Shown: in pieces, positions 32,822 through 62,180 of the stretch
How the letters are laid out: every line of letters begins with the position of its first letter
How positions within the stretch are numbered: the first letter of the stretch is position 1
DNA from: Desulfobulbaceae bacterium
GTDB taxonomy: Bacteria > Bacteroidota > Ignavibacteria > Kapaibacteriales > UBA2268
Assembly: GCA_018335795.1 (NCBI GenBank)
Contig: JAGXRP010000036.1
Location: forward strand, 1-64,000
Length of the DNA stretch: 64,000 nucleotides
Reading direction: 5' to 3'
Made by a program: the position numbers and the translations under genes
Notes under the pieces: generated by a model
The model's input: the letters and a program-made list of their open reading frames with translations, nothing else
Databases searched by the model: none
What the model was told of the DNA's origin: nothing

Positions 32822-35800
32822 ATGAAAAAAGGTTTAGGTTTCTGCCTTGGCGCCTCTTCAGTATCTCTTGCCATTGTTGAGAATCATGGCAACGGGTTTG
32901 AAGTCGTGTATTCATCTTCTGTTTTCCATCAAGGCGACCCGAAAATTGTTTTCACACAGTTGCTCGAAAAATATTACCAAAGCGATATAAGTGTTGTTGT
33001 TACCGGACGAAAATTTCGTTCTTTAGTAGCATTGGAAAATATTTCCGAACCTGAAGCTACCGAAACTGCATTCCTGGAGTTAATCTCTGATAACCACGAT
33101 TTTACCGGAATCGCATCGCTCGGTGGCGAGACTTTTTTGGCTTATACACTCGATAACGAATGTAGAATCAATAATGTAGTAGCGAAAAATCAGTGCGCCT
33201 CCGGCACAGGTGAATTCTTCCTCCAACAAATCAAACGAATGGATTTGACAGTCGAAGAAACAATCGAAATCGCCAAAGATGCCAATCCATACAAAGTTTC
33301 GGGGCGTTGCTCTGTTTTCTGCAAATCCGATTGCACTCATGCCCTGAACAAAGGTACCCCAAAATCTGAAGTTGCAGCCGGTTTGGCATATATGATTTCC
33401 GAAAAAATTGACGAGTTATTGAATAAAGTTCCTAAAGGAAAAATCCTGATTCTTGGTGGAGTAACTCGCAACTCAGTTGTAATGAATTTTGTCAAAGCAT
33501 CTCATCCGAATATTTTTATCCCTGAAAATGCCGATTCATTCGAAGCAATTGGTGCTGCAATTTATGGAATCAAAAAAGACATCAAACCATTAAGTTCGCT
33601 TGAAAATATCATAATCGAGAAAAGTTCTTCTTTCTCATATCATCGAGCTCTTCAAAATTTCGCCCATAAAGTTACATTCAAGCCATCGAAACGTTCAAAC
33701 GCGATTTCCGGGCAACGCTGCATCTTAGGCTTGGATGTTGGCTCCACGACTACCAAAGCAGTTGTCATTTCCGAAGATGGAGCCGAAATTCTCGCAGATG
33801 TTTATCTATACACAAATGGCAATCCTATTGCCGCTTCGCGAGAATGTTACGCTCGTTTGATGCAACAATTGCCTAACAATATTAATATTATCGGTATCGG
33901 GACAACCGGCTCGGGCAGGCAAATTTCGGGCATTCATGCTCTGACAGAAGGAGTGGTAAACGAAATTGTAGCTCATGCCACTGCTGCCGTATTTTTCGAT
34001 GACGAAGTTGATACTCTCTTCGAAATTGGCGGTCAAGATGCAAAATACACATATATTGTGAACAAAGTCCCTGCCGATTATGCCATGAACGAGGCTTGTT
34101 CCGCCGGTACAGGTTCGTTCATTGAGGAATCAGCTTACGAAACCTTGGGCATAAAAGTCACCGAAATCGAATCAATTGCCTTGAATGGTATGAAACCGCC
34201 AAATTTCAGCGACCAATGCGCTGCATTCATAAGTTCGGATATTAAAACAGCTTTGCAGGAAGGCATCAGCAAAGATGATATTGTGGCAGGTTTGGTCTAT
34301 TCGATTTGCTTGAATTATGTTAATCGAGTCAAGGGCAACCGCACAATTGGCAAAAAAATATTCATGCAAGGTGGTGTATGCTATAATAAGGCGATTCCAA
34401 TTGCTATGGCTGCTTTGACAGGTGCCGATATAATCGTTCCGCCCGACCCGGGCTTGATGGGTGCTTTCGGTGTAGCACTTGTTGTGAGAGAAAGGCTTGC
34501 TCTCGGTCTGATGGAGGAAGAGGATTTTGATTTACAGTCTCTTGCAGGCAGGGAAGTGACATACCGCAAACCATTTATTTGTTACGGTGGTAAAGAAAAG
34601 TGCGATAGACGTTGCTCGGTAAATATCATCGAGATTGAAGGGAAGAAACTTCCCTTTGGTGGTGCTTGCAATAAGTATTATAATCTAAAGGGCGAACAAA
34701 GCTTCGATTACGACAAATATGACTATGTCAAAAGACGCCATTTGTTAACTTTCGATATATTTGCTCCTGAACGTCCGCTTGGTGATAATCCCAAACGCGT
34801 CGGGCTGAATGCGTCTTTCCATACTTTCACTTTGTATCCGCTATTTTATAATTTTTTCAATTTATTGGGATTTGAAGTTGTAATGCCCGATGAGATTGAT
34901 AGTGAAGGCATTGAGCGGGAAAATACATCATTTTGCTATCCGGCACAGCTCTCATTGGGATTATTCAAAAATTTGATTGACAAAGCCCCTGATTTTTATT
35001 TCGTGCCTACAATTCTTGAAATGCTTGTTGACGACAGCGAATACCAACGGTTAGATTTCAATTGTACTTGCGTTTTTGTTAGCGGCGAGGCAATGTATTT
35101 GAAGCAAGCATATAAGGATTTGATTTCCGACAAAAGAATCTTATCGCCAAATCTAAATTTTGGGAACGGTTATCTCAAGGAGTTAAACAATTTCATCCAA
35201 ATCGGTCTGGACTTGGGCGTAAGTGCAAAAGCCGCCGAAAAAGCGTATTTAGATGCTATCGAAATGCAAAATAGTTATCAAAATGAGCTTTTGAATTTGG
35301 GAAATGAAGCTCTCGAAGAGATTTATTCCAAGCCCGACAACTTAGCAATTGTCTTGGTCGGACGCCCATATAATGCGTTTACCGACATTGCAAACAAAGG
35401 CATTCCTCGCAAATTTGCTTCACGAGGAATTTATGTTTTGCCGAATGATATTTTCGATTTGCACGATGACAAAGTGGACGACCATATGTATTGGGAAGGT
35501 GGCAAGAAAATCCTCAAATCTGCAAAATTTATCAAGCGTGATGACAGGTTGTTCGCAACATATATTTCTAATTTTTCCTGCGGACCTGACTCGATGATTT
35601 TGTCATCATTCCGTGAAATCATGGGCACAAAACCTTCCCTGACCTTAGAACTCGACGGTCATACCGCAGATGCCGGAATAAATACAAGAATTGACGCTGC
35701 AATTGACGTGATTAAAAATTATATTAAATTAAAATCCAACATTAAAGACCCTGATAATAGTGACTTCAAATCAGCAGATGTAGAATTCGGCAAAGAAGGG

Positions 35801-37132
35801 AATTATTATATTACTTCCGAAGGCGAACGAATCCCGATGAGTGACCCGAGAGTGAAAATTCTGATTCCTTCAATGGGCGATTTGAACTCTGAGATGTTTG
35901 CTGCTGCTTTCAGAAGTTTAGGCTTCAATGCTCATGCATTGCCACCCTCAAATCCTGAAATAATCAAATACGGCAAAGCTGTTTCAAGCGGTAAAGAGTG
36001 TTTACCATTGATAATTTTAGCCGGCTCGCTCTCTGATTATATTGAGAACCAAAAGAAGGAAGAATACGTCGCATTTTTCACTGTAGAGGGTGCCGGAAAT
36101 TGCAGATTGGGACAATATCCCGTATTTTTGAGACAGTTGATTAAATCAAAAAAATGGCGAAACGTGACCCAAATCACTTTAATGAATGAAGACGGTTTCG
36201 CCGGTTTCGGTTCAAAATTCGCGATGAGAGCCATTCAAGCTATTATGATAGGCGATGTATTGGACGATGTCCGCTCGGCAATTATGGCTTATGCTAAAAA
36301 TCCGGAACTTGGTGTAGAAATTTTCGATAGCGAATTCAAAATTGTCAGCGAAGGATTTGAACGAAATCCCGATAATATCTACAATTTGTTAGAGCATTTC
36401 TCAGAAGAAATTGCCGAAAAAGTACCCGTTGAGACACCTATTGAAAAAGCAAGATACGTAGCTTTGCTTGGAGAAATTTATGTTCGTCGAGACTTATTTT
36501 CGCATAAATATTTGAATGAAATTTTTGCAAAAAAGGGATTTGTACTCAAAATCGGCTATATCAGCGAATGGATTTACTACGTTGATTATTTGCTGAAAAT
36601 CGGATTGCTTGAGCCGGAAAACTCACTCAGGAAAAAATTGGAACGCGAGATTCGGCATTATTTTATGCGTTCGGCTGAGAAAAAAATCAAAAAAGCATTA
36701 TCTAAATCGGGCTATTACAAATATTCATTGACCGAAATAAAGCCACTGCTCGAACATAGCAAGCATATTATTCCATTGGATTTCAAAGGAGAACCCGGAT
36801 TGACTTTGGGCATTTCGATGTTCGAAACATTAGAAAAATACTGTGGAATCATCAATCTCGGACCTTTTGGCTGTATGCCGACTCGATTTACTGAAGCAGT
36901 TTCAATTCCCGAAATGACCGTAGAGAGAAAAATAGCCATCAGACAAGAATTAGAACCCGGCTTTAAGTTGTCGAGCCTCTTCAACGGAAAAATGTCTATT
37001 CCATTTCTGACAATAGAGGTGGACGGAAACGTCTTTCCTCAAGTTATTGAAGCAAGATTGGAAGCATTCACTTTACAAGCAGAGCGAACTGCCCAAATAA
37101 TGGAGACTGCTAAAAATGGGAATAAATCATGA
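32822..37132 (+). CDS. giant acyl-CoA dehydratase activase (BadF/BadG/HgdC-type), tandem ATPase
   Basis: The 1436-residue cytoplasmic protein has two ASKHA-fold activase modules in tandem, about 5-250 and 300-560. In each, both Fe-S-ligand Cys positions of HgdC are kept: Cys125 (NQCASGTGEF) with Cys163 (GRCSVFCKSDC), and Cys426 (NEACSAGTGSF) with Cys466 (SDQCAAFISSD). Phosphate loops are visible (LGLDVGSTTTKAVV at about 302). The second half holds DUF2229/CoA-dehydratase-related regions (GACNKYYNLKG, FCYPAQLSLGLFKNL). Related proteins are annotated as 2-hydroxyglutaryl-CoA dehydratase activases that use ATP to inject electrons, but no separate dehydratase subunits are present here. It overlaps acyP by 4 bases. 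Confidence 0.9.
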   Translation: MKKGLGFCLGASSVSLAIVENHGNGFEVVYSSSVFHQGDPKIVFTQLLEKYYQSDISVVVTGRKFRSLVALENISEPEATETAFLELISDNHDFTGIASLGGETFLAYTLDNECRINNVVAKNQCASGTGEFFLQQIKRMDLTVEETIEIAKDANPYKVSGRCSVFCKSDCTHALNKGTPKSEVAAGLAYMISEKIDELLNKVPKGKILILGGVTRNSVVMNFVKASHPNIFIPENADSFEAIGAAIYGIKKDIKPLSSLENIIIEKSSSFSYHRALQNFAHKVTFKPSKRSNAISGQRCILGLDVGSTTTKAVVISEDGAEILADVYLYTNGNPIAASRECYARLMQQLPNNINIIGIGTTGSGRQISGIHALTEGVVNEIVAHATAAVFFDDEVDTLFEIGGQDAKYTYIVNKVPADYAMNEACSAGTGSFIEESAYETLGIKVTEIESIALNGMKPPNFSDQCAAFISSDIKTALQEGISKDDIVAGLVYSICLNYVNRVKGNRTIGKKIFMQGGVCYNKAIPIAMAALTGADIIVPPDPGLMGAFGVALVVRERLALGLMEEEDFDLQSLAGREVTYRKPFICYGGKEKCDRRCSVNIIEIEGKKLPFGGACNKYYNLKGEQSFDYDKYDYVKRRHLLTFDIFAPERPLGDNPKRVGLNASFHTFTLYPLFYNFFNLLGFEVVMPDEIDSEGIERENTSFCYPAQLSLGLFKNLIDKAPDFYFVPTILEMLVDDSEYQRLDFNCTCVFVSGEAMYLKQAYKDLISDKRILSPNLNFGNGYLKELNNFIQIGLDLGVSAKAAEKAYLDAIEMQNSYQNELLNLGNEALEEIYSKPDNLAIVLVGRPYNAFTDIANKGIPRKFASRGIYVLPNDIFDLHDDKVDDHMYWEGGKKILKSAKFIKRDDRLFATYISNFSCGPDSMILSSFREIMGTKPSLTLELDGHTADAGINTRIDAAIDVIKNYIKLKSNIKDPDNSDFKSADVEFGKEGNYYITSEGERIPMSDPRVKILIPSMGDLNSEMFAAAFRSLGFNAHALPPSNPEIIKYGKAVSSGKECLPLIILAGSLSDYIENQKKEEYVAFFTVEGAGNCRLGQYPVFLRQLIKSKKWRNVTQITLMNEDGFAGFGSKFAMRAIQAIMIGDVLDDVRSAIMAYAKNPELGVEIFDSEFKIVSEGFERNPDNIYNLLEHFSEEIAEKVPVETPIEKARYVALLGEIYVRRDLFSHKYLNEIFAKKGFVLKIGYISEWIYYVDYLLKIGLLEPENSLRKKLEREIRHYFMRSAEKKIKKALSKSGYYKYSLTEIKPLLEHSKHIIPLDFKGEPGLTLGISMFETLEKYCGIINLGPFGCMPTRFTEAVSIPEMTVERKIAIRQELEPGFKLSSLFNGKMSIPFLTIEVDGNVFPQVIEARLEAFTLQAERTAQIMETAKNGNKS

Positions 37133-37407
37133 GCGATTGCATCAGAGCTACATATAAGATTCACGGACATGTCCAAGGTGTTGGATTTCGTTATTATGTC
37201 CAACGGAAAGCCATCGAAATGGGTTTGAAAGGTTATGTGAAAAATTTGTACGACGGCACAGTCGAATGCGTGGTCGAATCTGATTTATATACAACCGAGC
37301 TTTTCAAAAGCATTCTAAAAAAAGGAAGCTCGCGCTCGCACGTGACAAATATCGAAATAATACTCTCGGAGTGTAAGAATAATCACAATTCATTCGAGAT
37401 AATTTGA
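37129..37407 (+). CDS. acyP: acylphosphatase
   Basis: The 92-residue protein shows the two active-site motifs of acylphosphatase: HGHVQGVGFRYYVQ, with the phosphate-binding loop and Arg21, and GYVKNLYDGTVECVVE, with the catalytic Asn39. It hydrolyses acyl phosphates such as acetyl phosphate or carbamoyl phosphate. It is translationally coupled on both sides (ATGA with the activase gene, TTGA with the patatin gene), which suggests a joint, still unknown role. Confidence 0.93.
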   Translation: MSDCIRATYKIHGHVQGVGFRYYVQRKAIEMGLKGYVKNLYDGTVECVVESDLYTTELFKSILKKGSSRSHVTNIEIILSECKNNHNSFEII

Positions 37408-40094
37408 AAAAACTGATTCATATTAATTTTCTTCGTCTATGCTTACTTTCCGTATTCGGATTTGTATGTTCAGCTGAAATGCTTGCCCAAAACAAACAAA
37501 CATACCGTTTACCATCACAAGATGAATTATACCCCAAAATCACATTAGTATTGAGTGGTGGAGGCGCCAGAGGCATCAGCCAAATTGGCGTACTGAAAGC
37601 CCTCGAAAAGAATAATATCAAAATTCATTCAATTACCGGAACAAGTATAGGAGCAATAATTGGCGGACTTTATGCAACAGGTAATAATGCTGATGAGTTG
37701 ATGAATTTGATTGTTGATTATGATTGGAATCGTATTGTAGCACTCAATGAATTCGGTAATCGTAGCGATTTGTTCTTCGACCAAAAAGAGCTATACGACC
37801 GCAAATTAGTTACAATGAAGTTTAATAATTTTCAATTTACGCCACCACAAGCAATAAGTACTGGTTCGGGCTTCGATTCTTTCATCCAAAGTATGATTTG
37901 GAGCTCACCTTATATGCCGACAACAAATTTTGATTCATTAAAGTATCCTCTGAGAATAATTGCCACCGATTTGGTTCAAGGCAAGTCGGTATCTTTGAAA
38001 AGTGGCAATTTAGCCAGAACCATCAAAGCGAGCGCCACTATTCCGCTTCGTTTCCCAACAGTCAGGATTGATTCGATGATTTTGGTTGATGGTGGTATCT
38101 TGGCAAATATTCCTGTCAAATCTGCATTTGAATTTAATCCAGATATTATTATAGCCGTTAATTCATCTTCTCCGCTTTTGGAGAGATTCGATTTAGTCAA
38201 TCCTTGGAATATTGCTGACCAAGCAATATCTACTGCTATGAAAAAAATATCCGATGACGAAATGTTGCTCGCAGACTTTATTATAAGTCCTAACCTTGGC
38301 AACAAAAAGAATATAGACTTTACTGATTTGGAATTTACTGCAGAACTTGGCTATGACGTTGCAATGGATTCTATCAAAAGCATTATCAATAAAATAGAAC
38401 TTATTAAAAAAGCAAAATTAGATAGTCTTTCAAATTTTTTATTTGGTAATATTACTGAAGCAAAGTTAAGTGTAAAAGGCTTCGATTCTATGGATTCGCA
38501 ATTATTACTTAGTAATAATGATGACCAATTACAAAATTTACGTGACGCATTGCTCGTAATTTATAATCAGGATTCATTCGCTAAATATAAATCTATTGAT
38601 ATCGAAATCAATGCTGATGAAATCGAAATCATTGCAGAAAAATTCATTGAAATCCAGACAATCCAAGTTAAAGTTAATCCCGGTTATGAATCAATAGCCG
38701 ACTCTTTGTCCATTATTTTAGGCGAACAATTCATAGGGCAAAGATTTGATAATGAAGTGCAACATCAGATTTTTGAGAACGCTTCAGAACTTTTGACTCA
38801 ACACAATTTCCCTCTATCCAAAATCACAAGTATTTCTATACTTAATGACATTTTGATGCTTGAATGTAATCTTGGAATAGTTTACGAAATTGGTATTACT
38901 GGGAATCATCAAACAGCTTCATACCTGATTGATAGAGACCTAAACTTTGCAAAAGGTGAACTTATTAGTCCTGAAAAAATAATAGAATCTAGAGAAAATC
39001 TCATATCTACAAATCTTTTTGATGATGTTGATATCTATCCGTTCATAGATAAATTTGGGAATATGGTAATACGAGTCCATGTCCGTGAAAGCGGCACCCA
39101 AACTATTAGCATAGGAGCTAGAGTGGATAACGAACGAAATGCCCAAGTTGGACTAGATTTGATTCAAGATAATATTATGAACACAGGGTCGCGATTTTTG
39201 TTCAGATTTGCGGTTGCAAATTCATTCCTTCTTTCAGAATTATCACTCACGAATCCTCGTTTTTTTAGGACTAACCTAACGACATCTTTTCTTGCATTTT
39301 ACAATAGAACCGATAGGAATAGCTTCACACCTGAAGTGCCTAATCAACCAAATAGGTTCTCTAATCTCAAGACTCGAGATATGAGAGAGGAAGACTACGG
39401 ATTAACTGCATTAGTTGGTATGCAGCTCGAAAGGCAAGGGCGACTTTATGTTCAACTTCGATATGAAAAACAACGCTATTACAAAATGTCAAATGTCATT
39501 CCTGATTTTTATACTGTTTCGACTATTAAATTCGGTACTGTCTTCGACAATCGCAAATCATTAGATTTCCCTAAAGATGGTAGAGTAATTGATGTATCTC
39601 TTGAGACAAATTTATTGCCTGTTACCAAAGCAGTGGCTTTTTCTAAAGCCTTATTCAGCTACTCTTCGAATAGGTCAATAGCAGACCATACCTTGAATAC
39701 GACTCTGACTTTCGGTGTTGCAGACGTTACAGTCCCTTATCCCGAGTTTTATTCTCTCGGTGGCGAAGATTCATTTTTTGGGATGTTTGAAGATGAAGAA
39801 CGCGGACGACAACTTTTTCGAGGTTCTGTCGGATACCGCTACTTATTGCCATTTCAAATCTTTTTCGATACTTATTTTAGCGTTCGATATGATTTTGGCT
39901 CAACATGGCTTATACCCGACGATATAAAATTCAGTACATTCAAACACGGCATTGGTAGTACTGTTGCATTAGATTCTCCTCTTGGTCCACTTAAGTTTAG
40001 CATAGGCAACAGCTTCTATTTCCGGAAGTCTCCCGATAGAGTAATTTGGGGCGAGACTCATGTTTATTTCAGTCTTGGAATGAGAGTAATCTAA
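37404..40094 (+). CDS. patatin-like phospholipase fused to POTRA and outer-membrane barrel (PlpD-like)
   Basis: The frame starts at a TTG overlapping the acyP stop and codes 896 residues. After a signal peptide (about 1-29), a patatin domain covers about 45-340: oxyanion loop SGGGARG, nucleophile Ser81 in GTSIG, and Asp229 in VDGG. A POTRA-like segment (about 420-560; VYEIGITGNHQTASYLIDRDL) follows. The last 300 residues form a BamA/TamA-type beta-barrel with alternating strands and a terminal aromatic motif (ETHVYFSLGMRVI). This is the layout of type Vd autotransporters such as PlpD, but in Bacteroidota-type homologues the lipase may face the periplasm. It acts at the outer membrane on lipids, by inference. 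The next start overlaps its stop (TAATG). Confidence 0.9.
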   Translation: MKKLIHINFLRLCLLSVFGFVCSAEMLAQNKQTYRLPSQDELYPKITLVLSGGGARGISQIGVLKALEKNNIKIHSITGTSIGAIIGGLYATGNNADELMNLIVDYDWNRIVALNEFGNRSDLFFDQKELYDRKLVTMKFNNFQFTPPQAISTGSGFDSFIQSMIWSSPYMPTTNFDSLKYPLRIIATDLVQGKSVSLKSGNLARTIKASATIPLRFPTVRIDSMILVDGGILANIPVKSAFEFNPDIIIAVNSSSPLLERFDLVNPWNIADQAISTAMKKISDDEMLLADFIISPNLGNKKNIDFTDLEFTAELGYDVAMDSIKSIINKIELIKKAKLDSLSNFLFGNITEAKLSVKGFDSMDSQLLLSNNDDQLQNLRDALLVIYNQDSFAKYKSIDIEINADEIEIIAEKFIEIQTIQVKVNPGYESIADSLSIILGEQFIGQRFDNEVQHQIFENASELLTQHNFPLSKITSISILNDILMLECNLGIVYEIGITGNHQTASYLIDRDLNFAKGELISPEKIIESRENLISTNLFDDVDIYPFIDKFGNMVIRVHVRESGTQTISIGARVDNERNAQVGLDLIQDNIMNTGSRFLFRFAVANSFLLSELSLTNPRFFRTNLTTSFLAFYNRTDRNSFTPEVPNQPNRFSNLKTRDMREEDYGLTALVGMQLERQGRLYVQLRYEKQRYYKMSNVIPDFYTVSTIKFGTVFDNRKSLDFPKDGRVIDVSLETNLLPVTKAVAFSKALFSYSSNRSIADHTLNTTLTFGVADVTVPYPEFYSLGGEDSFFGMFEDEERGRQLFRGSVGYRYLLPFQIFFDTYFSVRYDFGSTWLIPDDIKFSTFKHGIGSTVALDSPLGPLKFSIGNSFYFRKSPDRVIWGETHVYFSLGMRVI

Positions 40095-56190: not shown

Positions 56191-56221
56191 TTTGTGATTA
56201 ATTTGTATTTCTATAAATTTG
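56191..56221 (+). promoter_or_regulatory. promoter of the cytochrome locus, Bacteroidota type
   Basis: TTTG (56191-56194), exactly 19 bases, then TAAATTTG (56214-56221) matches TTTG-N19-TAnnTTTG fully. The start of transcription would be near 56228, about 60 bases before the ATG at 56287. Confidence 0.75.
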
Positions 56222-56273
56222 ATTAAATCGTAACTAGATTTTACTTGTTCTTTAAAATTAATGTTTAATAAAT

Positions 56274-56278
56274 GGGAG
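56274..56278 (+). promoter_or_regulatory. Shine-Dalgarno site deciding the hexaheme cytochrome start
   Basis: GGGAG lies 8 bases before the ATG at 56287. An earlier in-frame ATG at 56272 overlaps it and would spoil the lipoprotein signal, so 56287 is preferred. Confidence 0.7.
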
Positions 56279-56286
56279 ATTTTTAT

Positions 56287-57369
56287 ATGAAATCAATACA
56301 CTCTAAAACAGTGTGGCTCTCTATATGGGGAGTTTTAATATTTGCGACTATGCTTTTCGCTAGTTGTGAAGGACCAGCGGGTAAGGATGGACTCGCCGGT
56401 AAAGACGGTAAAGATGGTAAAGATGGAGCTGATGGCACTCAAAACTGTGGTACTTGCCACGATGCCTCAACTGACCTTTTTGCAAAACAACTACAATGGG
56501 CAGCATCAGACCACGCTACAAATACATCATTCGAGCGCTCTGGTGCATCTTGCGCCGCTTGTCATACCAGTGACGGTTTCCGTGAAGTAGCTGTTACAGG
56601 CGAGTCTAATACTGCTGCTGCAATTAGCAACCCTACAGGACAAAATTGCCGTACATGTCATACGATACACGAGACATATACAAATGATGACTACAAGCTT
56701 ACATACGAAAAGAAAGCAAAATTGAGAACAACCGGTGTAGAATTTGATTTCGGTAAGGGTTCTCTTTGTGCCCAATGCCACCAAGCTCGCACAACTACAC
56801 CCGCACTTGACTTAAACGCTGAGACTTATACTTTAGCAAACTTTCGTTTTGGGCCTCACTATGGAGCTGCTGCAAATGTAATTGCCGGCTCGGGAGCATT
56901 CGAATTAGCGGGAAGTCTGCCGTATGCAAATACCGGTGCTCACCAAAATATTCAAAATTCTTGCGTTTCTTGCCATATGGGAACCGCTTATGGAAATCAA
57001 GCAGGCGGACATACAATGAAAATGAAATATTCTTATAACAGCGCTATGGTTGATAACGTTGCTGTTTGTACTCCTTGTCATTCAAGTGCAAAAGACTTTA
57101 ACATAAGTGGTTACCAATCTGAAATGAAAGATTTGGCAACATTAGTAAGAAAAAGATTACTTGAGTTAGACATGATTACTCCTACTGATGGTGTTGATAC
57201 TGACCCTGTTAACTATAATCACGATTATGCAAAAGTTGGGACATATCCATCTAAGCGGGCTGCAGCTTTATACAATTATATATTCATTATGCGCGATAAG
57301 AGTTGGGGTATTCACAACCCAAGATACACCAAGGCTGTATTGCAAAATGCATTAGAAGCTTTGAACTAA
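56287..57369 (+). CDS. hexaheme c-type cytochrome lipoprotein with collagen-like linker
   Basis: The 360-residue protein has a lipoprotein signal (MLFASC, lipid Cys27). Immediately after it comes a Gly-x-y stretch (GPAGKDGLAGKDGKDGKDG, about 29-50) that looks like a short collagen-like stalk. Six CxxCH heme motifs follow: CGTCH (54-58), CAACH, CRTCH, CAQCH, CVSCH and CTPCH. The C-terminal 100 residues have none. Extra His residues (HETY, HMGT, HTMKMK) could be distal ligands. It should be anchored by lipid, in the outer membrane or facing the periplasm or outside, and pass electrons. A strong promoter precedes it and a terminator follows, so it can be expressed on its own. Confidence 0.9.
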   Translation: MKSIHSKTVWLSIWGVLIFATMLFASCEGPAGKDGLAGKDGKDGKDGADGTQNCGTCHDASTDLFAKQLQWAASDHATNTSFERSGASCAACHTSDGFREVAVTGESNTAAAISNPTGQNCRTCHTIHETYTNDDYKLTYEKKAKLRTTGVEFDFGKGSLCAQCHQARTTTPALDLNAETYTLANFRFGPHYGAAANVIAGSGAFELAGSLPYANTGAHQNIQNSCVSCHMGTAYGNQAGGHTMKMKYSYNSAMVDNVAVCTPCHSSAKDFNISGYQSEMKDLATLVRKRLLELDMITPTDGVDTDPVNYNHDYAKVGTYPSKRAAALYNYIFIMRDKSWGIHNPRYTKAVLQNALEALN

Positions 57370-57400
57370 GAGTTTTTTTAGTAATGAAGAAATTATTATG

Positions 57401-57440
57401 AAAGATATGGAGGATAATTTTTCCTCCATGTCTTTTTTTT
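57401..57440 (+). terminator. terminator after the hexaheme cytochrome gene
   Basis: AAAGATATGGAGGA pairs with TCCTCCATGTCTTT (one G-T pair) around a 7-base loop, followed by T residues. It is 31 bases after the stop. Confidence 0.88.
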
Positions 57441-57512
57441 ATTTTGAATTTGATTTTTACAAGAAAAACATATATATTGCTAACTGAGATTTAACAATTA
57501 CGAGAGACTGAT

Positions 57513-58760
57513 ATGAAAAAAACAATCCTGATTCTACTCACTTTTTTCCTTGTGAGCGAGTACGCTATTTCCCGTCCACAATATTCTATTTTGCAAACGT
57601 ATGGTACAAAATGTACTAATTGCCATGCAAATGCTAATTATGGTGGAGCAAGGAACTTTGGCGGCTTTTTAGCCCGAAAAGATATTGGACTAATCCAACC
57701 TGATGACATCGGTTTGCAAGGACTTTATGATTTCCTTGGCGAAGGTACCGAATTGTTTGACGGAAAAGTTAATTGGGGACTCGATATGAGACTCCAAAAT
57801 GCACGTTGGGCTCAAACTTCACGCAAAGAAGAAGTTAGAGTGGATACAAATGTTGTAAGACCGACGATTGAACGCAAGACAATGCTAATGCAAATTTCTC
57901 CATATTTACAGGTTCAAGCTGCAAGTTGGCTCAGAATCGAAGGTATGTACAACTTTGCTTATGATATACATGACGACATGCGCTATCCCGGGCAACAAGC
58001 TTTTTATGCAGGAGTAACTATCCAACCATGGCAAGATTTGCCATCAATTCGGGTCGGGTATTTGAATCCACCAATCAGCCTTGATTTCGATGACCATACT
58101 ATGCTTGTTCGCCAAGTTTCAGGTTTGGGTAGAAGTATGCCACTAATTCCTGCTGATTATGCTGAGTTGGGCTTTGAAATTAATTATGACGGACTATCAT
58201 GGCTTAATGCGTCCTTTGGGATGTATGAATCCAAAAACATGGCTAAAATTAAAACAGAAGGCGTTCCAATAGTTAATGAAAACACTATGTCGTCGGTTGT
58301 GAATCTTTCTGTTCACCCACAACTACCTTACGGATTGCAAGGCTTTATGGGTTTGAGTCACTTCTTTAACAGTTCATTAAAAACTGATGACGGGATTTAT
58401 TTCGGAAACAACTATTTGACAATTTCATCTGTTTATTTGGGTATAGGACTTGCCGATAGAGTGGCTCTTATGGCTGAATACATTAATTCGACTAAACAAA
58501 GCTTGCAGGAAGTTAATAATTACTCGCTCGAACTTACTTATCAATTCATGGAACCAATATATGTTTTTGGACGTTATGAAAGCGGCAAGACAGACATAAT
58601 GAGGTCAGGTCAAATTTGGGAAGCCAAGCAATACGTCTTAGGAGCTCACATTTATCCGCTCCCGTTTATTGACCTAATTCCGGAATACAGAATTTACGAC
58701 AGAGCAGACGTCCCGGGCACAAGTGCGCAATGGGCATTCCAAATACATGTATTTTATTAA
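57513..58760 (+). CDS. outer-membrane barrel-like protein with one N-terminal heme-c motif
   Basis: The 415-residue protein has a GAGAG site (57502-57506). Its signal peptide is MKKTILILLTFFLVSEYAIS. It has one CxxCH motif, CTNCH (Cys34-His38), followed by GGARNFGGFLARKD. The rest alternates polar and aromatic residues in strands of about 10 (WGLDMRLQNARW, WLRIEGMYNFAYDI, GFMGLSHFFNSS, YVLGAHIYPL) and ends in WAFQIHVFY, a terminal aromatic typical of outer-membrane barrels. The combination of a porin-like barrel and a heme suggests an electron conduit across the outer membrane, as in porin-cytochrome complexes, but this is inference. It is the first gene after a terminator and is followed by the Rieske gene after 23 bases. 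Confidence 0.8.
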   Translation: MKKTILILLTFFLVSEYAISRPQYSILQTYGTKCTNCHANANYGGARNFGGFLARKDIGLIQPDDIGLQGLYDFLGEGTELFDGKVNWGLDMRLQNARWAQTSRKEEVRVDTNVVRPTIERKTMLMQISPYLQVQAASWLRIEGMYNFAYDIHDDMRYPGQQAFYAGVTIQPWQDLPSIRVGYLNPPISLDFDDHTMLVRQVSGLGRSMPLIPADYAELGFEINYDGLSWLNASFGMYESKNMAKIKTEGVPIVNENTMSSVVNLSVHPQLPYGLQGFMGLSHFFNSSLKTDDGIYFGNNYLTISSVYLGIGLADRVALMAEYINSTKQSLQEVNNYSLELTYQFMEPIYVFGRYESGKTDIMRSGQIWEAKQYVLGAHIYPLPFIDLIPEYRIYDRADVPGTSAQWAFQIHVFY

Positions 58761-58783
58761 TAGAACAAGCAAGGAGAATAATA

Positions 58784-59266
58784 ATGAAAAATAATACTGA
58801 AAGAAGAGATTTTCTGAAGAAAGCCGGAACCGTATTTGGTGTGGGTATTTTTGCAAGCGCCTTTGGCTCAGTAATTACATCATGCGAGCGTGACGAAATC
58901 GTTGCCGCACCCGACCCCGAAACTATTGACCTTGATATGTCAAAATATCCTCAAGTTTCAGCCGTTGGCTCAATGGCAATCATACAAATTTCGCGTTTGG
59001 ATGGTTCACCATTGAAATTATTTTTGAAACGTGCTTCCGAAGACCATTACATCGTCCTTGAAGCTCTTTGCCGCCACCAAACAGGTCCGCTCGAATTACC
59101 AAGCGCTGATGGTGGTCCGTTAAGATGTATTCTCCACGGAGCTACATTTAATACCGACAATGGTTCACTTATTACCAACCCGACTTCGGATACTATTCCC
59201 GATTTGGTTAAGTTTAGAGTTTTTGAATTTAACAAACAAACAAATATTTTACGCATAGAAGTTTGA
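58784..59266 (+). CDS. Tat-exported Rieske [2Fe-2S] protein
   Basis: The ATG at 58784, preceded by AAGGAG (58771-58776), gives 160 residues; a more upstream start reads through the previous gene. The N-terminus is a Tat signal (ERRDFLKKAGTVFGVGIFAS) ending in ITSC, so it may also be lipidated at Cys34. The Rieske cluster ligands are Cys96/His98 (CRH) and Cys115/His118 (CILH), 16 residues apart. Rieske proteins of quinol oxidases take electrons from quinol, but no bc1/b6f cytochrome b with the Qo motif lies in the window, so this one may serve another cytochrome. It lies between the barrel gene and a monoheme cytochrome. Confidence 0.9.
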   Translation: MKNNTERRDFLKKAGTVFGVGIFASAFGSVITSCERDEIVAAPDPETIDLDMSKYPQVSAVGSMAIIQISRLDGSPLKLFLKRASEDHYIVLEALCRHQTGPLELPSADGGPLRCILHGATFNTDNGSLITNPTSDTIPDLVKFRVFEFNKQTNILRIEV

Positions 59267-59346
59267 TTATGTTACAAATTTTGCGTAATTTCGTTATATA
59301 AATATACGGTAATATATTAATTAAAAATTATACATAGGAGTATAAA

Positions 59347-59700
59347 ATGTTAGGTAAATTTTTGACTTTCGCAATAGTGCTCGGATTGAGCATCAGCTTT
59401 ATGAATACAGCCAATTCAACAGAAGCTAAAGACGGCAAAACGATTTTTGAAGAATCCAAATGCACTACTTGTCATTCAATTGACTCACAAGGCGTCGAAA
59501 CTCGCAAAAAAACTCCCAAGACAGTAGATTTGTCTAAATTGGAAGGCGATCATGATGCTGCTTTTTGGATGGGATATTTGAAGAAAGACCAAACCTTAAA
59601 TGATAAGAAGCATCCGATTGCATTCAAAGGTGATGATGCGGAGCTTGAAATTATGATTAATTGGTTGGTATCAATTTCTGCCGAACCTGCTGCTGAATAA
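59347..59700 (+). CDS. small monoheme cytochrome c
   Basis: The 117-residue protein has AGGAG at 59336-59340 before its ATG and a signal peptide (about 1-25). There is one heme motif, CTTCH (Cys39-His43), in the class I context IFEESKCTTCHSID. A Met for the sixth ligand may lie in the helix DAAFWMGYL. It would act as a soluble periplasmic electron carrier in the locus. A clear terminator follows. Confidence 0.92.
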   Translation: MLGKFLTFAIVLGLSISFMNTANSTEAKDGKTIFEESKCTTCHSIDSQGVETRKKTPKTVDLSKLEGDHDAAFWMGYLKKDQTLNDKKHPIAFKGDDAELEIMINWLVSISAEPAAE

Positions 59701-59717
59701 TTTGTCTTTAAACTTTT

Positions 59718-59764
59718 AAAAAGGGCGTTTGTGATTAAATGATAATTGCTCCGCCCTTTTTAGT
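59718..59764 (+). terminator. terminator after the monoheme cytochrome gene
   Basis: AAAAAGGGCG (59718-59727) pairs perfectly with CGCCCTTTTT (59752-59761), with a 24-base loop. It divides the locus into two units. Confidence 0.82.
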
Positions 59765-59859
59765 TTAAAACGTAAAAAGCAAAGAGGTTATTTTTGCAAC
59801 ATTTTTGCTTATTACGTTAGAATAACAAATAAAACTTGTTAGTACATGAAGGAGATAAT

Positions 59860-61320
59860 ATGAAAATTGTATACACTATTGTTATTTGCATTTTTTGCTT
59901 CTTTGCACATTCGCTAAACTTGCATTGTCAAAGCGATGAAGATTGCATGGAATGCCATTCCGACCCCGATATTTCGATGGAAAGGAAAGGTGTGCTTCGT
60001 CCCTTAACAGTCAAAAAATTTATTTTGGCACGTTCGGTACATGCCAGTTTAAAATGCGTTGACTGCCACGCTGGATTTGACCCTTATGATATTCCTCATA
60101 AATCACCAATGACATTAATCAATTGTTTGGATTGCCACAAAAATACAGTCCAAATTCATAGATTTCATCCTCAAATGGTAGGTTCAAAAGGCACAGAAGG
60201 CAGCCCAAATGTAAATTGTAAGGGGTGCCACGGCACTCATAATGTATCATCGCCCAAAGACCCAACATCTCCGAAGCATTTTGCAAATTCAACTCAATAT
60301 TGTGGGAAATGTCATGCTGACATATTGACAGACCATCTGCAATCCGAACATCATGTCGAAGTCGAACACAATAATCCCAATGCGCCAACATGTATTTACT
60401 GCCATTCGAAACCAATTACCAAAGGCAATTTGCTTGATAAAGCACAGTTAAAAATTAATCAAGAAAAGCTCTGCTTGGATTGTCATTTGAATGACCCACA
60501 CAATCCGAGCAAATTTGCTAAAACTTTAGTTGATTATGAAAAAAGTGTTCATGGCTTGGCAATATTGAGCGGCAATCAAGATGCAGCTGTTTGTGTGGAT
60601 TGCCATGGTGCCCATAAATTGCAAAAAGCAAGCGTTCCGACCTCATCGGTTCATAAAAATAATATTGCTGAATTATGTGGCAAATGCCATGGTGATATTA
60701 CAAAAGAATATCTGAGCAGTGTCCATGGTCGAGCTATGAAATTCGGAGTTGGCGAATCACCCTCTTGCACATTTTGTCATGGTGAACATAATATTACAGC
60801 TGTCCCTCATATCGAAAAGCAAGTATTCACTGCAACAGGAATGAAGTTTGAAAAAATGGTAGATAATCAAATGGTATGGTGCATAAGTTGCCATAGCGAC
60901 CAAGCTATGATGACAAGACGCGGTTTGTTGACTATCGAGGAGGCACATAAATGGCTTCCCGCAGCTGCCACACATTATAATACAGTGCGTTGCGTAGATT
61001 GCCATTCATCATACGACCCACCAAACTTATCTCATAACATTTTGAATCGGGAAGAAACTATCAAAAAATGCGAGGAGTGCCACTCTCAAAATTCTGTACT
61101 AATGTCTAAATTATATGTACATGAGAAAGAAAAATCTCGTAATCTAATGGGTTTCATCAATGGCACCTTGCTTAGTAATGCATATGTAATAGGTACAACT
61201 CGAAATGTTTATCTCGATGTTACTAGCGGAGTTATATTCGTATTTACAGTCTCTGGAATTTTTATTCACGCATTTTTAAGATTTCGTTCACGTAAAACAC
61301 GCAATGTGGAGCAAGCATGA
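59860..61320 (+). CDS. 13-heme c-type cytochrome with C-terminal membrane anchor
   Basis: The ATG at 59860 with AAGGAG (59849-59854) gives 486 residues; an earlier start at 59836 is less likely. A signal peptide precedes 13 CxxCH motifs: CMECH, CVDCH, CLDCH, CKGCH, CGKCH, CIYCH, CLDCH, CVDCH, CGKCH, CTFCH, CISCH, CVDCH and CEECH. Many are paired with nearby His in HGxH or VHxxH contexts, suggesting bis-His hemes. The C-terminus has one helix (TSGVIFVFTVSGIFIHAFLRF) and a basic tail that leaves the hemes on the periplasmic side. The next gene, a cytochrome b, overlaps by 4 bases, so the pair is probably one complex that exchanges electrons with quinones. A -7-like TATTTTTG lies at 59789-59796. 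Confidence 0.92.
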   Translation: MKIVYTIVICIFCFFAHSLNLHCQSDEDCMECHSDPDISMERKGVLRPLTVKKFILARSVHASLKCVDCHAGFDPYDIPHKSPMTLINCLDCHKNTVQIHRFHPQMVGSKGTEGSPNVNCKGCHGTHNVSSPKDPTSPKHFANSTQYCGKCHADILTDHLQSEHHVEVEHNNPNAPTCIYCHSKPITKGNLLDKAQLKINQEKLCLDCHLNDPHNPSKFAKTLVDYEKSVHGLAILSGNQDAAVCVDCHGAHKLQKASVPTSSVHKNNIAELCGKCHGDITKEYLSSVHGRAMKFGVGESPSCTFCHGEHNITAVPHIEKQVFTATGMKFEKMVDNQMVWCISCHSDQAMMTRRGLLTIEEAHKWLPAAATHYNTVRCVDCHSSYDPPNLSHNILNREETIKKCEECHSQNSVLMSKLYVHEKEKSRNLMGFINGTLLSNAYVIGTTRNVYLDVTSGVIFVFTVSGIFIHAFLRFRSRKTRNVEQA

Positions 61321-62120
61321 AAAAATTGTTTTTATATCCTTTTTGGCTTAGATTTTGGCATTGGTTAAATGCCGCGTTGTTTATACTTTTGATTCTAACC
61401 GGGATTAGCATTCATTATTCAGCTTCCAATGATTTACTAATGCCTTTCGAATATGCAATTGTAACGCATAATGTAGCCGGAATAATCTTGAGTTTTCTGT
61501 TTTTAATTTTTACTATAATGAATATCAAATCCGGGAATTACAAGTATTATATTCCCTTGATGCATGGCATATATGAACGACTGGTGAAGCAGGGTAGATA
61601 TTACGTTTATGGTGTATTCAATGGCGAACCGCACCCTTATCATATTTCGGAAAAAGACAAATTCAACCCTCTCCAACAAATCTCATACTTCGGAATTATC
61701 TTTTTTATGATGCCGACTATCATAATTAGCGGATGGTTATTGTTGTTCCCGGAATTAGCTCCCGGCGAAATCATGGGGATGGGTGGAGTATGGCCCATGG
61801 CAGTATTGCATAGTGTGGTCGGATATTTACTTAGTATTTTCATGTTCGGACATATTTATTTAGCAACTCATGGTGATACAATCGGTGCCAATTTCAAATC
61901 TATGATTGATGGCTATCATCACGTTCATGAAGACGAACATGCTGGTAATGGTAACGGAACTCCAATTAATTATGAGTTGCTATCTGATGAAGTCGCTTAT
62001 GGAAATGAAATTGTGGGTACAAATCACATTCCTGCAAAAGAAGAAGTTATACCAGATATTGAGTCTGAATCGTTATCAGAAGATGAATCAACCGATGATA
62101 GAAGCGAAAAAAAACAATAA
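61317..62120 (+). CDS. di-heme cytochrome b (b561/Ni-Fe hydrogenase cytochrome b type)
   Basis: The 267-residue protein has four hydrophobic helices. Its likely heme-b His ligands are His15 (RFWHWLNA), His51 (YAIVTHNVAG) and two in VLHSVVGYLLSIFMFGHIYLATH. This is the pattern of the b561-like subunits that connect periplasmic redox enzymes with the quinone pool. A long acidic tail (EEVIPDIESES to the end) is unusual for the family. Its ATG overlaps the stop of the 13-heme cytochrome gene, and a terminator follows. Confidence 0.9.
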   Translation: MKKLFLYPFWLRFWHWLNAALFILLILTGISIHYSASNDLLMPFEYAIVTHNVAGIILSFLFLIFTIMNIKSGNYKYYIPLMHGIYERLVKQGRYYVYGVFNGEPHPYHISEKDKFNPLQQISYFGIIFFMMPTIIISGWLLLFPELAPGEIMGMGGVWPMAVLHSVVGYLLSIFMFGHIYLATHGDTIGANFKSMIDGYHHVHEDEHAGNGNGTPINYELLSDEVAYGNEIVGTNHIPAKEEVIPDIESESLSEDESTDDRSEKKQ

Positions 62121-62135
62121 ACATTAATGTTTGTT

Positions 62136-62180
62136 AAAATGAATCAATAGGAAACATTCTTTATTGATTCATTTTTTTTT
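62136..62180 (+). terminator. terminator of the cytochrome locus
   Basis: AAAATGAATCAATA (62136-62149) pairs exactly with TATTGATTCATTTT (62162-62175), followed by T residues. It directly abuts the convergent GT2 stop at 62181. Confidence 0.88.

Follow-up and report, generated by a model that had tools for sequence, protein, structure and literature searches.

A heme-bearing porin with Rieske and multiheme partners in Kapaibacteriales, a candidate quinone-to-surface electron conduit

We analyzed a window of 64,000 nucleotides (positions 1 to 64,000, forward strand, of contig JAGXRP010000036.1 in GenBank assembly GCA_018335795.1, deposited as a Desulfobulbaceae bacterium and carrying the GTDB lineage Bacteroidota; Ignavibacteria; Kapaibacteriales; UBA2268), in which six plus-strand genes at 56272-62120, here g1 to g6, encode redox proteins arranged around g2, a predicted 16-strand porin with a heme site of its own. 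The locus is best read as a trans-envelope electron conduit running from quinone to cell surface in the order g6-g5-g4-g3-g2-g1, a reading to which we give a probability of about 0.6. The evidence that carries it is an invariant heme motif on a confidently modelled barrel, together with a redox neighbourhood that is kept among diverged relatives.

The heme-bearing porin g2

An earlier note, made from the sequence alone, had described six consecutive plus-strand genes in this order, with hexaheme, barrel-heme, Tat-Rieske (Tat, twin-arginine translocation), 13-heme and cytochrome b motifs. All six genes were present in the list of open reading frames (ORFs), with CXXCH heme motif counts of 6, 1, 0, 1, 13 and 0 for g1 to g6, and motif counts together with Pfam recovered each of the named motifs. 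The likely starts were corrected to 56287 (or 56272), 58784 and 59860, and the end of g6 to 62120. The features of the locus are as follows.

56287..57369, + strand: g1, hexaheme c-type lipoprotein; lipobox, then a collagen-like GxxGxD stretch; PF22113; an earlier start at 56272 is possible
57400..57436, + strand: strong stem-loop with a T run after it in the g1-g2 gap, resembling a terminator or a 3' end; z -6.1
57513..58760, + strand: g2, porin fused to a monoheme cytochrome; signal-like stretch at the N-terminus; heme site CTNCH (residues 34-38); 16 strands (within residues 86-414)
58784..59266, + strand: g3, Rieske [2Fe-2S] protein exported by the Tat route and probably a lipoprotein (by eye, a TSC follows the Tat region); its ORF is open from 58730
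59347..59700, + strand: g4, small monoheme cytochrome c; PF00034
59860..61320, + strand: g5, cytochrome with 13 hemes and, by eye, a single hydrophobic anchor at the C-terminus; its ORF is open from 59836
61317..62120, + strand: g6, b-type cytochrome; PF01292; 4-base overlap with g5

When each protein was shuffled 2000 times, the observed CXXCH count was never reached for g1 and g5, once for the g2 barrel and twice for g4. The remainder of the window held one single CXXCH, in one frame, among frames of at least 80 codons.

The properties of g2 were examined in an alignment of 44 members, consisting of the window protein and 43 others found through a C-terminal peptide, and since the members were chosen by that peptide, the heme site did not bias their selection. 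CXXCH was invariant in all 44. The earlier note had made its proposal depend on a barrel being predicted for this gene, and the AlphaFold model built from the alignment contained one, with 16 strands, a mean predicted local distance difference test score (pLDDT) of 86.7 and a predicted template modelling score of 0.83; the CTNCH site lies N-terminal to all strands. The closest structural match of the model was OprP (2o4v; Z 25.3, root-mean-square deviation [rmsd] 2.7, 287 residues aligned), followed by OprO (4rjw; Z 25.2, rmsd 3.3, 292 aligned), with ordinary 16-strand porins ranking below these two at Z 21-23, and Foldseek placed OprP and OprO first and fourth. Invariant residues of the 44 members include G31, C34, C37, H38, R47, G51, D193, D194 and H195, and a GGGxR-like stretch follows the heme site in 39 members. 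No Pfam family matched g2 above its cut-off, sequence searches of solved structures yielded nothing useful for it, and PADLOC returned no result for g2 or g3.

The earlier note had held that the gene set, with its Rieske protein and a heme on the barrel, matches no conduit that could be named. For the barrel heme this does not stand, as the published Cyc2 is a 16-strand porin, with OprP and OprO as its modelling templates, to which a monoheme domain is fused (Keffer et al. 2021, PMC8406198, in the sections drawn on here). Cyc2 of Acidithiobacillus, Mariprofundus and Chlorobium and g2 share an N-terminal monoheme c domain, an OprO/OprP-like porin of 16 strands and a length of more than 365 residues. 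The same sections give two Cyc2 motifs, AXPXFAR[Q/K][T/Y] before the heme site and PXL shortly after it; neither was found in any of the 44 g2 members, the published patterns having been applied with no Cyc2 sequence run as a control, while a looser [AS]xPx[FY] preceded the heme in 33. With both published motifs absent, membership of g2 in Cyc2 was rejected, and the g2 family is, as judged from its sequences, at least a distinct group of fused cytochrome-porins with the Cyc2 layout. A distant place within the Cyc2 tree is possible, because Cluster 3 of that tree is described as very divergent (PMC8406198, same sections). What is unusual in the group, besides the missing motifs and its own GGGxR-like stretch, is a Rieske protein as the commonest partner, a surface-type multiheme lipoprotein upstream and a quinone-type module alongside. 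A search that used the published Cyc2 motif as its query would miss these proteins (0/44). How far such fusions drift is illustrated by Cyt572/Cyc572 of Leptospirillum, a very divergent cytochrome-porin fusion, here likened to g2 by description only, which is 11.4% identical to Cyc2 (PMC10654088, in the part drawn on).

Distribution and conserved gene neighbourhood

Counting the window's own genome, g2 had matches in 79 of 100 relatives and its profile in 73 of 395 phylum genomes, many of these being class-level ones with partial matches or much weaker scores. A scan of named records with a single C-terminal peptide pattern gave 48 loci, mostly from assemblies labelled Kapabacteria, Ignavibacteria or 'Bacteroidetes', with some labelled Myxococcales or Deltaproteobacteria. 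For one record labelled Ectothiorhodospiraceae (L109), the phylum search returned places in the window's phylum, and it is perhaps mislabelled.

Gene neighbourhoods were compared at 21 loci from the window's family (each from a different genome and taken from the best barrel matches), at 19 loci of other families of the order and in 20 class-level stretches from other families, 18 of which had a called barrel. Within the window's family, where the barrels are 34-49% identical to that of the window (96% in one congener), a g1 homologue lay directly upstream of the barrel at 20 of 21 loci. The gene directly downstream encoded a Rieske protein at 17 loci and a lipoprotein of the family here called C4lip at the other 4, three of these with CXXCH. 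A g4 homologue occurred at 19 of the 21, and g5, 50-56% identical outside the congener, lay within four genes on the same strand at 13. The earlier note had left it to be seen whether the gene order is conserved, and had allowed that the genes might always be found apart and belong to a known respiratory complex; the order is kept at 34-49% barrel identity, and that alternative fails.

To place these counts in a wider set, 86 non-redundant barrels were scored for Rieske or c-type proteins within four same-strand genes. Such a neighbour was present at 66 of them and a Rieske protein at 48. By group, any redox neighbour and a Rieske neighbour were found, respectively, at 22 and 18 of 22 barrels of the window's own family, 14 and 12 of 18 from the order's other families, 21 and 17 of 28 from further named records, and 9 and 1 of 18 from the class's other families. 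For comparison, only 3 of 248 single genes of at least 100 residues and at least 8 places away encoded Rieske or c-type proteins, a background rate that, with about 7.6 neighbours per barrel, would give about one barrel in ten by chance. The gene calling was simple, so that misses are to be expected, and the Rieske and CXXCH counts are cleaner than those of C4lip, which was defined from the barrel neighbourhoods themselves.

CX2-4CH was present in 18 of 20 non-redundant C4lip proteins; at L051 and L080 the C4lip protein that stands directly after the barrel, in the Rieske place, has no CX2-4CH motif. On a tree of the 86 barrels made by a quick method, 16 changes were counted among Rieske, monoheme and no partner, and at least 5 between Rieske and monoheme alone; the class without a partner also takes in contig ends and poorly called genes, and a few of the C4lip proteins scored as monoheme have no heme motif. 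This gives a hint of partner exchange around the barrel.

Among the order's other families, a small protein of an unplaced family, a YceI-like protein and a Rieske protein often come after the barrel; at L054 (8159-9171), L096 (11199-11498) and similar loci, the YceI-like protein and a small protein without a Pfam match (C7) stand between barrel and Rieske. At some loci of these families, a protein near the barrel combines a type IX sorting tail with a choice-of-anchor V domain and CXXCH (of each kind of neighbour named here, one example was scanned). An example at L065 (7774-10530) has 918 residues, the sorting tail and an N-terminal choice-of-anchor V domain with CXXCH, and is a possible surface heme partner. 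Among class-level barrels, C4lip or anchor-V neighbours occur in some, a Rieske protein in one and none of these in half.

A profile of g1 had matches in 35 of 100 relatives (E 1e-20), every one of family f1, and the match lay within 2 kb upstream of a barrel in 31 of the 35 (the other four comprised three genomes with no barrel match and one with its barrel elsewhere). Likewise, g5 reached at least 500 bits in 34 of 100 relatives, again all f1. Thus g1, g2 and the small lipoprotein form a tight core in f1, barrel plus Rieske form a wider core, and g5-g6 is an attachable module.

Partner proteins of the barrel

The surface-type lipoprotein g1 matched PF22113, the domain II/IV family of MtrC/MtrF, with 58.8 bits against a cut-off of 30, and the family was above cut-off in 12 of 18 aligned members. 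Six CX2-4CH sites were present in 17 of the 18. The alignment contains five further invariant histidines, and a sixth stands 5-7 residues before the fifth heme site in 17 of 18 members; a candidate second histidine is thereby available for every heme, which fits a wire whose hemes are all bis-histidine ligated, and not an open-heme enzyme. The collagen-like stalk that follows the lipobox in 25 of 26 non-redundant members would fit a surface tether.

In g3, the Rieske ligand pairs C-x-H and C-x-x-H and a Tat-like RRDFLKK were found, and PF00355 matched above its cut-off. Among 54 non-redundant proteins of the Rieske group, the Tat motif was present in 45 and the ligand pattern in 53. A search of the sequences of solved structures with g3 returned only proteins of oxygenase systems or other Rieske proteins, the best at E 0.0016. 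Rieske proteins of the bc1 type have an extra cysteine pair; the window g3 lacks it, both cysteines are present in 36 of the 54 relatives, and we drew no direction of electron flow from the Rieske potential.

For g5, Pfam reported cytochrome c7 and other multiheme families, and the sequence search of solved structures gave nothing useful. Thirteen CXXCH sites occurred in every full-length close relative listed, and the same cluster holds a distant member with 11 sites and larger ones with 19. Invariant columns of g6 in seven sequences include H15, H51, H165 and H179, four histidines that we take to resemble those of diheme b cytochromes. In many relatives g6 extends into a part with six CXXCH, and NapC/NirT and NrfH models matched this in the one protein scanned. 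A bc1-type complex was rejected, as the Pfam search with g6, run to a limit of E 1, matched PF01292 alone and no bc-type cytochrome b.

The window genome contains further cytochromes of these kinds. On contig C39 (L174, 613-4202), a second 13-heme gene is followed by a 730-residue cytochrome b protein with 6 CXXCH; on C12 (L176, 5122-8004), a g5-related cytochrome of 960 residues has 19 CXXCH; on C45 (L175, 3649-6838), two cytochrome genes adjoin, with 8 CXXCH (749 residues) and 7 CXXCH (312 residues); and on C63 (L177, 5392-8791), a protein with a Tat-like start, an NrfD protein and a 13-CXXCH cytochrome stand in a row, another possible quinone module (all in genome G000).

As for transcription, the hairpin between g1 and g2 has 15 pairs followed by Ts and is kept in the congener (L034); of three further relatives, two carry other hairpins in this gap, with z of -2.7 and -4.0, and the third carries none (z -1.2). 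Terminator-like sites numbered 4 against 4.1 expected, and only stem length and stability single this one out. A promoter scan was uninformative (30 sites, 25.7 expected). The hairpin may mean that g1 is made in excess, or that its message ends there.

Proposed electron path and competing explanations

The earlier note had proposed that the genes carry electrons between quinones and the outer membrane or the outside. Motifs, barrel and neighbourhood fit this, and the path itself we infer, with localisation, docking order, direction and substrate all conditional. The b cytochrome g6 and the anchored 13-heme g5 would together act as an inner-membrane module in electron exchange with the quinone pool, g4 would shuttle in the periplasm, and the Rieske lipoprotein g3 would dock at the periplasmic mouth of g2. 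The g2 heme, at the periplasmic end of the 16-strand pore, would then exchange electrons with a partner reaching in from outside, which could be either part of the surface hexaheme g1 or a small solute, as Keffer et al. proposed for Fe2+ entering the Cyc2 pore (PMC8406198, in the sections drawn on). With only one heme near the periplasmic mouth, either the solute must enter the pore or a g1 heme must reach in. We slightly favour outward flow, to an extracellular acceptor, over inward flow.

Several findings weigh against this conduit. A single heme near the periplasmic mouth probably cannot carry electrons across the outer membrane by itself. The fold comparison of g1 was weak: its model had a pLDDT of 68, Foldseek gave no match at E <0.001, and the surface cytochrome 6qvm (Z 9.5, rmsd 4.7, 239 aligned) was level with NrfA-type enzymes (Z up to 9.4); MtrC and OmcA were not among the fold matches listed, which, for so weak a comparison, excludes nothing. 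At the barrel, 20 of 86 had no redox neighbour, 9 of the 18 class-level ones included (simple gene calling), and the C4lip protein in the Rieske place at L051 is without any heme motif. Elsewhere in the order the barrel occurs mostly with YceI, a small protein and Rieske and no multiheme cytochromes, and its core job may be multiheme-free. The g5 gene was beside the barrel in 20 of its 34 genomes (in two by way of a barrel fragment at a contig end), elsewhere in 11, too close to a contig end to be assigned in 1 and in a genome without a barrel match in 2, and the second g5-g6-like pair of the window genome has no barrel on its 9.4-kb contig. Finally, the g1-g2 hairpin speaks against one even operon, and the six genes need not share one even transcript.

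The strongest alternative, which we regard as unlikely but well worth weighing, is that two independent systems adjoin here, one of them a barrel/Rieske/surface-cytochrome set (g1-g4), the other a quinone-linked 13-heme/cytochrome b set (g5-g6) with several periplasmic partners. It draws on the 11 genomes just mentioned, on three such places (L179-L181) with no barrel near, one of them followed by a 19-heme cytochrome, and on g5-g6 being mostly missing at barrel loci of other families. However, the same-strand proximity of g5 at 13 of 21 loci of the window's family would be hard to keep at 50-56% identity without a functional tie, and the conduit would be fed even by a quinone module that it shares.

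A somewhat weaker candidate is inward flow by Cyc2-like oxidation of Fe(II) or another metal, in which Fe2+ would reduce the barrel heme, the Rieske protein and cytochrome c would feed terminal oxidases, and g5-g6 would serve uphill quinone reduction. The architecture and fold templates are those of Cyc2, and Rieske proteins and class I cytochromes c are often high-potential carriers. The window genome encodes two heme-copper oxidases, a bd oxidase and two NrfD proteins, with one molybdopterin-family match, and is probably able to respire oxygen; one NrfD cluster, beside a heme-copper oxidase with the second oxidase nearby (L172, on contig C6 of G000), is presumably alternative complex III-like. 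A barrel match was found in 75 of 92 relatives with a COX1 match. On the other side, neither Cyc2 motif occurs in the 44 members, surface cytochromes of the MtrC kind are found more often in outward systems, and the barrel was also matched in 4 of 8 relatives without COX1. Two of these four are likewise without a bd oxidase match, though incomplete assembly can explain this: G032, which is 88% complete and has g5 next to a barrel fragment, and G025, which is 91% complete, with the barrel matched in part and no g5. Barrel presence does not track oxidase presence closely, and the oxidases do not settle the direction of flow.

Less probable again is that g1 is an outward-facing multiheme reductase or oxidase of one soluble compound, NrfA- or octaheme-like and fed through the barrel, and not a general wire. 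In its favour, PF02335 matched residues 216-357, octaheme nitrite reductases matched weakly (E 0.002-0.004) and NrfA-type structures reached Z 8-9. Yet a CXXCK heme site is absent from g1, its conserved extra histidines would serve six hemes with none obviously open, and the collagen-like stalk suggests a surface tether; an NrfA-type enzyme was rejected on the first two of these points. It is very improbable that g2 is an ordinary solute porin with a structural CXXCH and incidental redox neighbours: its structural matches are indeed solute porins, ordinary 16-strand ones included, but the motif is invariant, and redox neighbours stand at 66 of 86 barrels against 3 of 248 distant genes.

Two genes elsewhere in the window may be recorded here. 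At 32822-37132, a protein of 1436 residues has BadF/BcrAD and DUF2229 domains, of the coenzyme A enzyme activase type, in a genome that also has oxidases, and at 37404-40094 a patatin phospholipase domain is fused to an Omp85 barrel.

In Gram-negative bacteria, the well-described electron routes across the outer membrane are Cyc2-type fused porins and porin-cytochrome complexes with multiple hemes. The conduit proposed here would work like a hybrid of the two, with the fused monoheme porin of Cyc2 and the surface multiheme lipoprotein and CbcL-like quinone module of Mtr/Pcc, and by the features tested it is a member of neither. With MtrCAB, MtoAB and Pcc, it shares an outer-membrane barrel, a surface multiheme lipoprotein, which in g1 matches the MtrC/MtrF domain family, and periplasmic cytochromes. 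It differs in having the heme on the barrel itself and not on a separate multiheme cytochrome inside, and in having 16 strands, whereas Mtr/Mto barrels have 26 (PMC8406198, in the sections drawn on). PF22113 on a lipoprotein is common to g1 and MtrC/MtrF/OmcA, but g1 has six hemes and is not a decaheme protein with two pentaheme domains. CbcL, MtrH and MtoC join a multiheme c part to a HydC/FdnI-like b cytochrome, with proposed quinone exchange for extracellular transfer (PMC6295460, in the part drawn on); g5-g6 differs from them in being two genes and not one chain, in its 13 hemes and in the NrfH-like extension of the b cytochrome in relatives. PioABC resembles the locus in encoding an iron-sulfur protein beside an outer-membrane conduit, but PioC is a [4Fe-4S] high-potential iron-sulfur protein (PMC10654088, in the part drawn on), whereas g3 is a Tat-Rieske [2Fe-2S] protein beside another kind of barrel.

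No paper describing this locus or gene set was found among titles and abstract starts of the open-licence PubMed Central literature, which is weak evidence of absence. Arbour et al. reported porin-cytochrome clusters in Ignavibacteria found with MtrB, OmbB, ExtB/ExtE and ExtI models (PMC7399161, in the part drawn on), models that would not be expected to find a fused porin like g2. In the parts of two further papers drawn on, PMC9342728 places Cyc2 in Chlorobium and has Kapabacteria only as a class mention, and PMC12442345 does not mention Ignavibacteria or Kapabacteria.

We put forward tentatively, at somewhat less than even odds, that the locus represents a third kind of outer-membrane conduit, in which a monoheme porin stands between a periplasmic Rieske or monoheme lipoprotein and a pore-inserting surface hexaheme lipoprotein, coupled in a single lineage with a quinone module made of a 13-heme cytochrome and a cytochrome b. 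If true, this would be a design intermediate between Cyc2 and Mtr and common across Kapabacteria and their relatives. The g2 group would make it testable whether a single heme together with a surface cytochrome can serve as a conduit, and, as one more group of porins with a heme, widespread among bacteria that are mostly uncultured, it would add to the organisms that may exchange electrons with minerals or electrodes.

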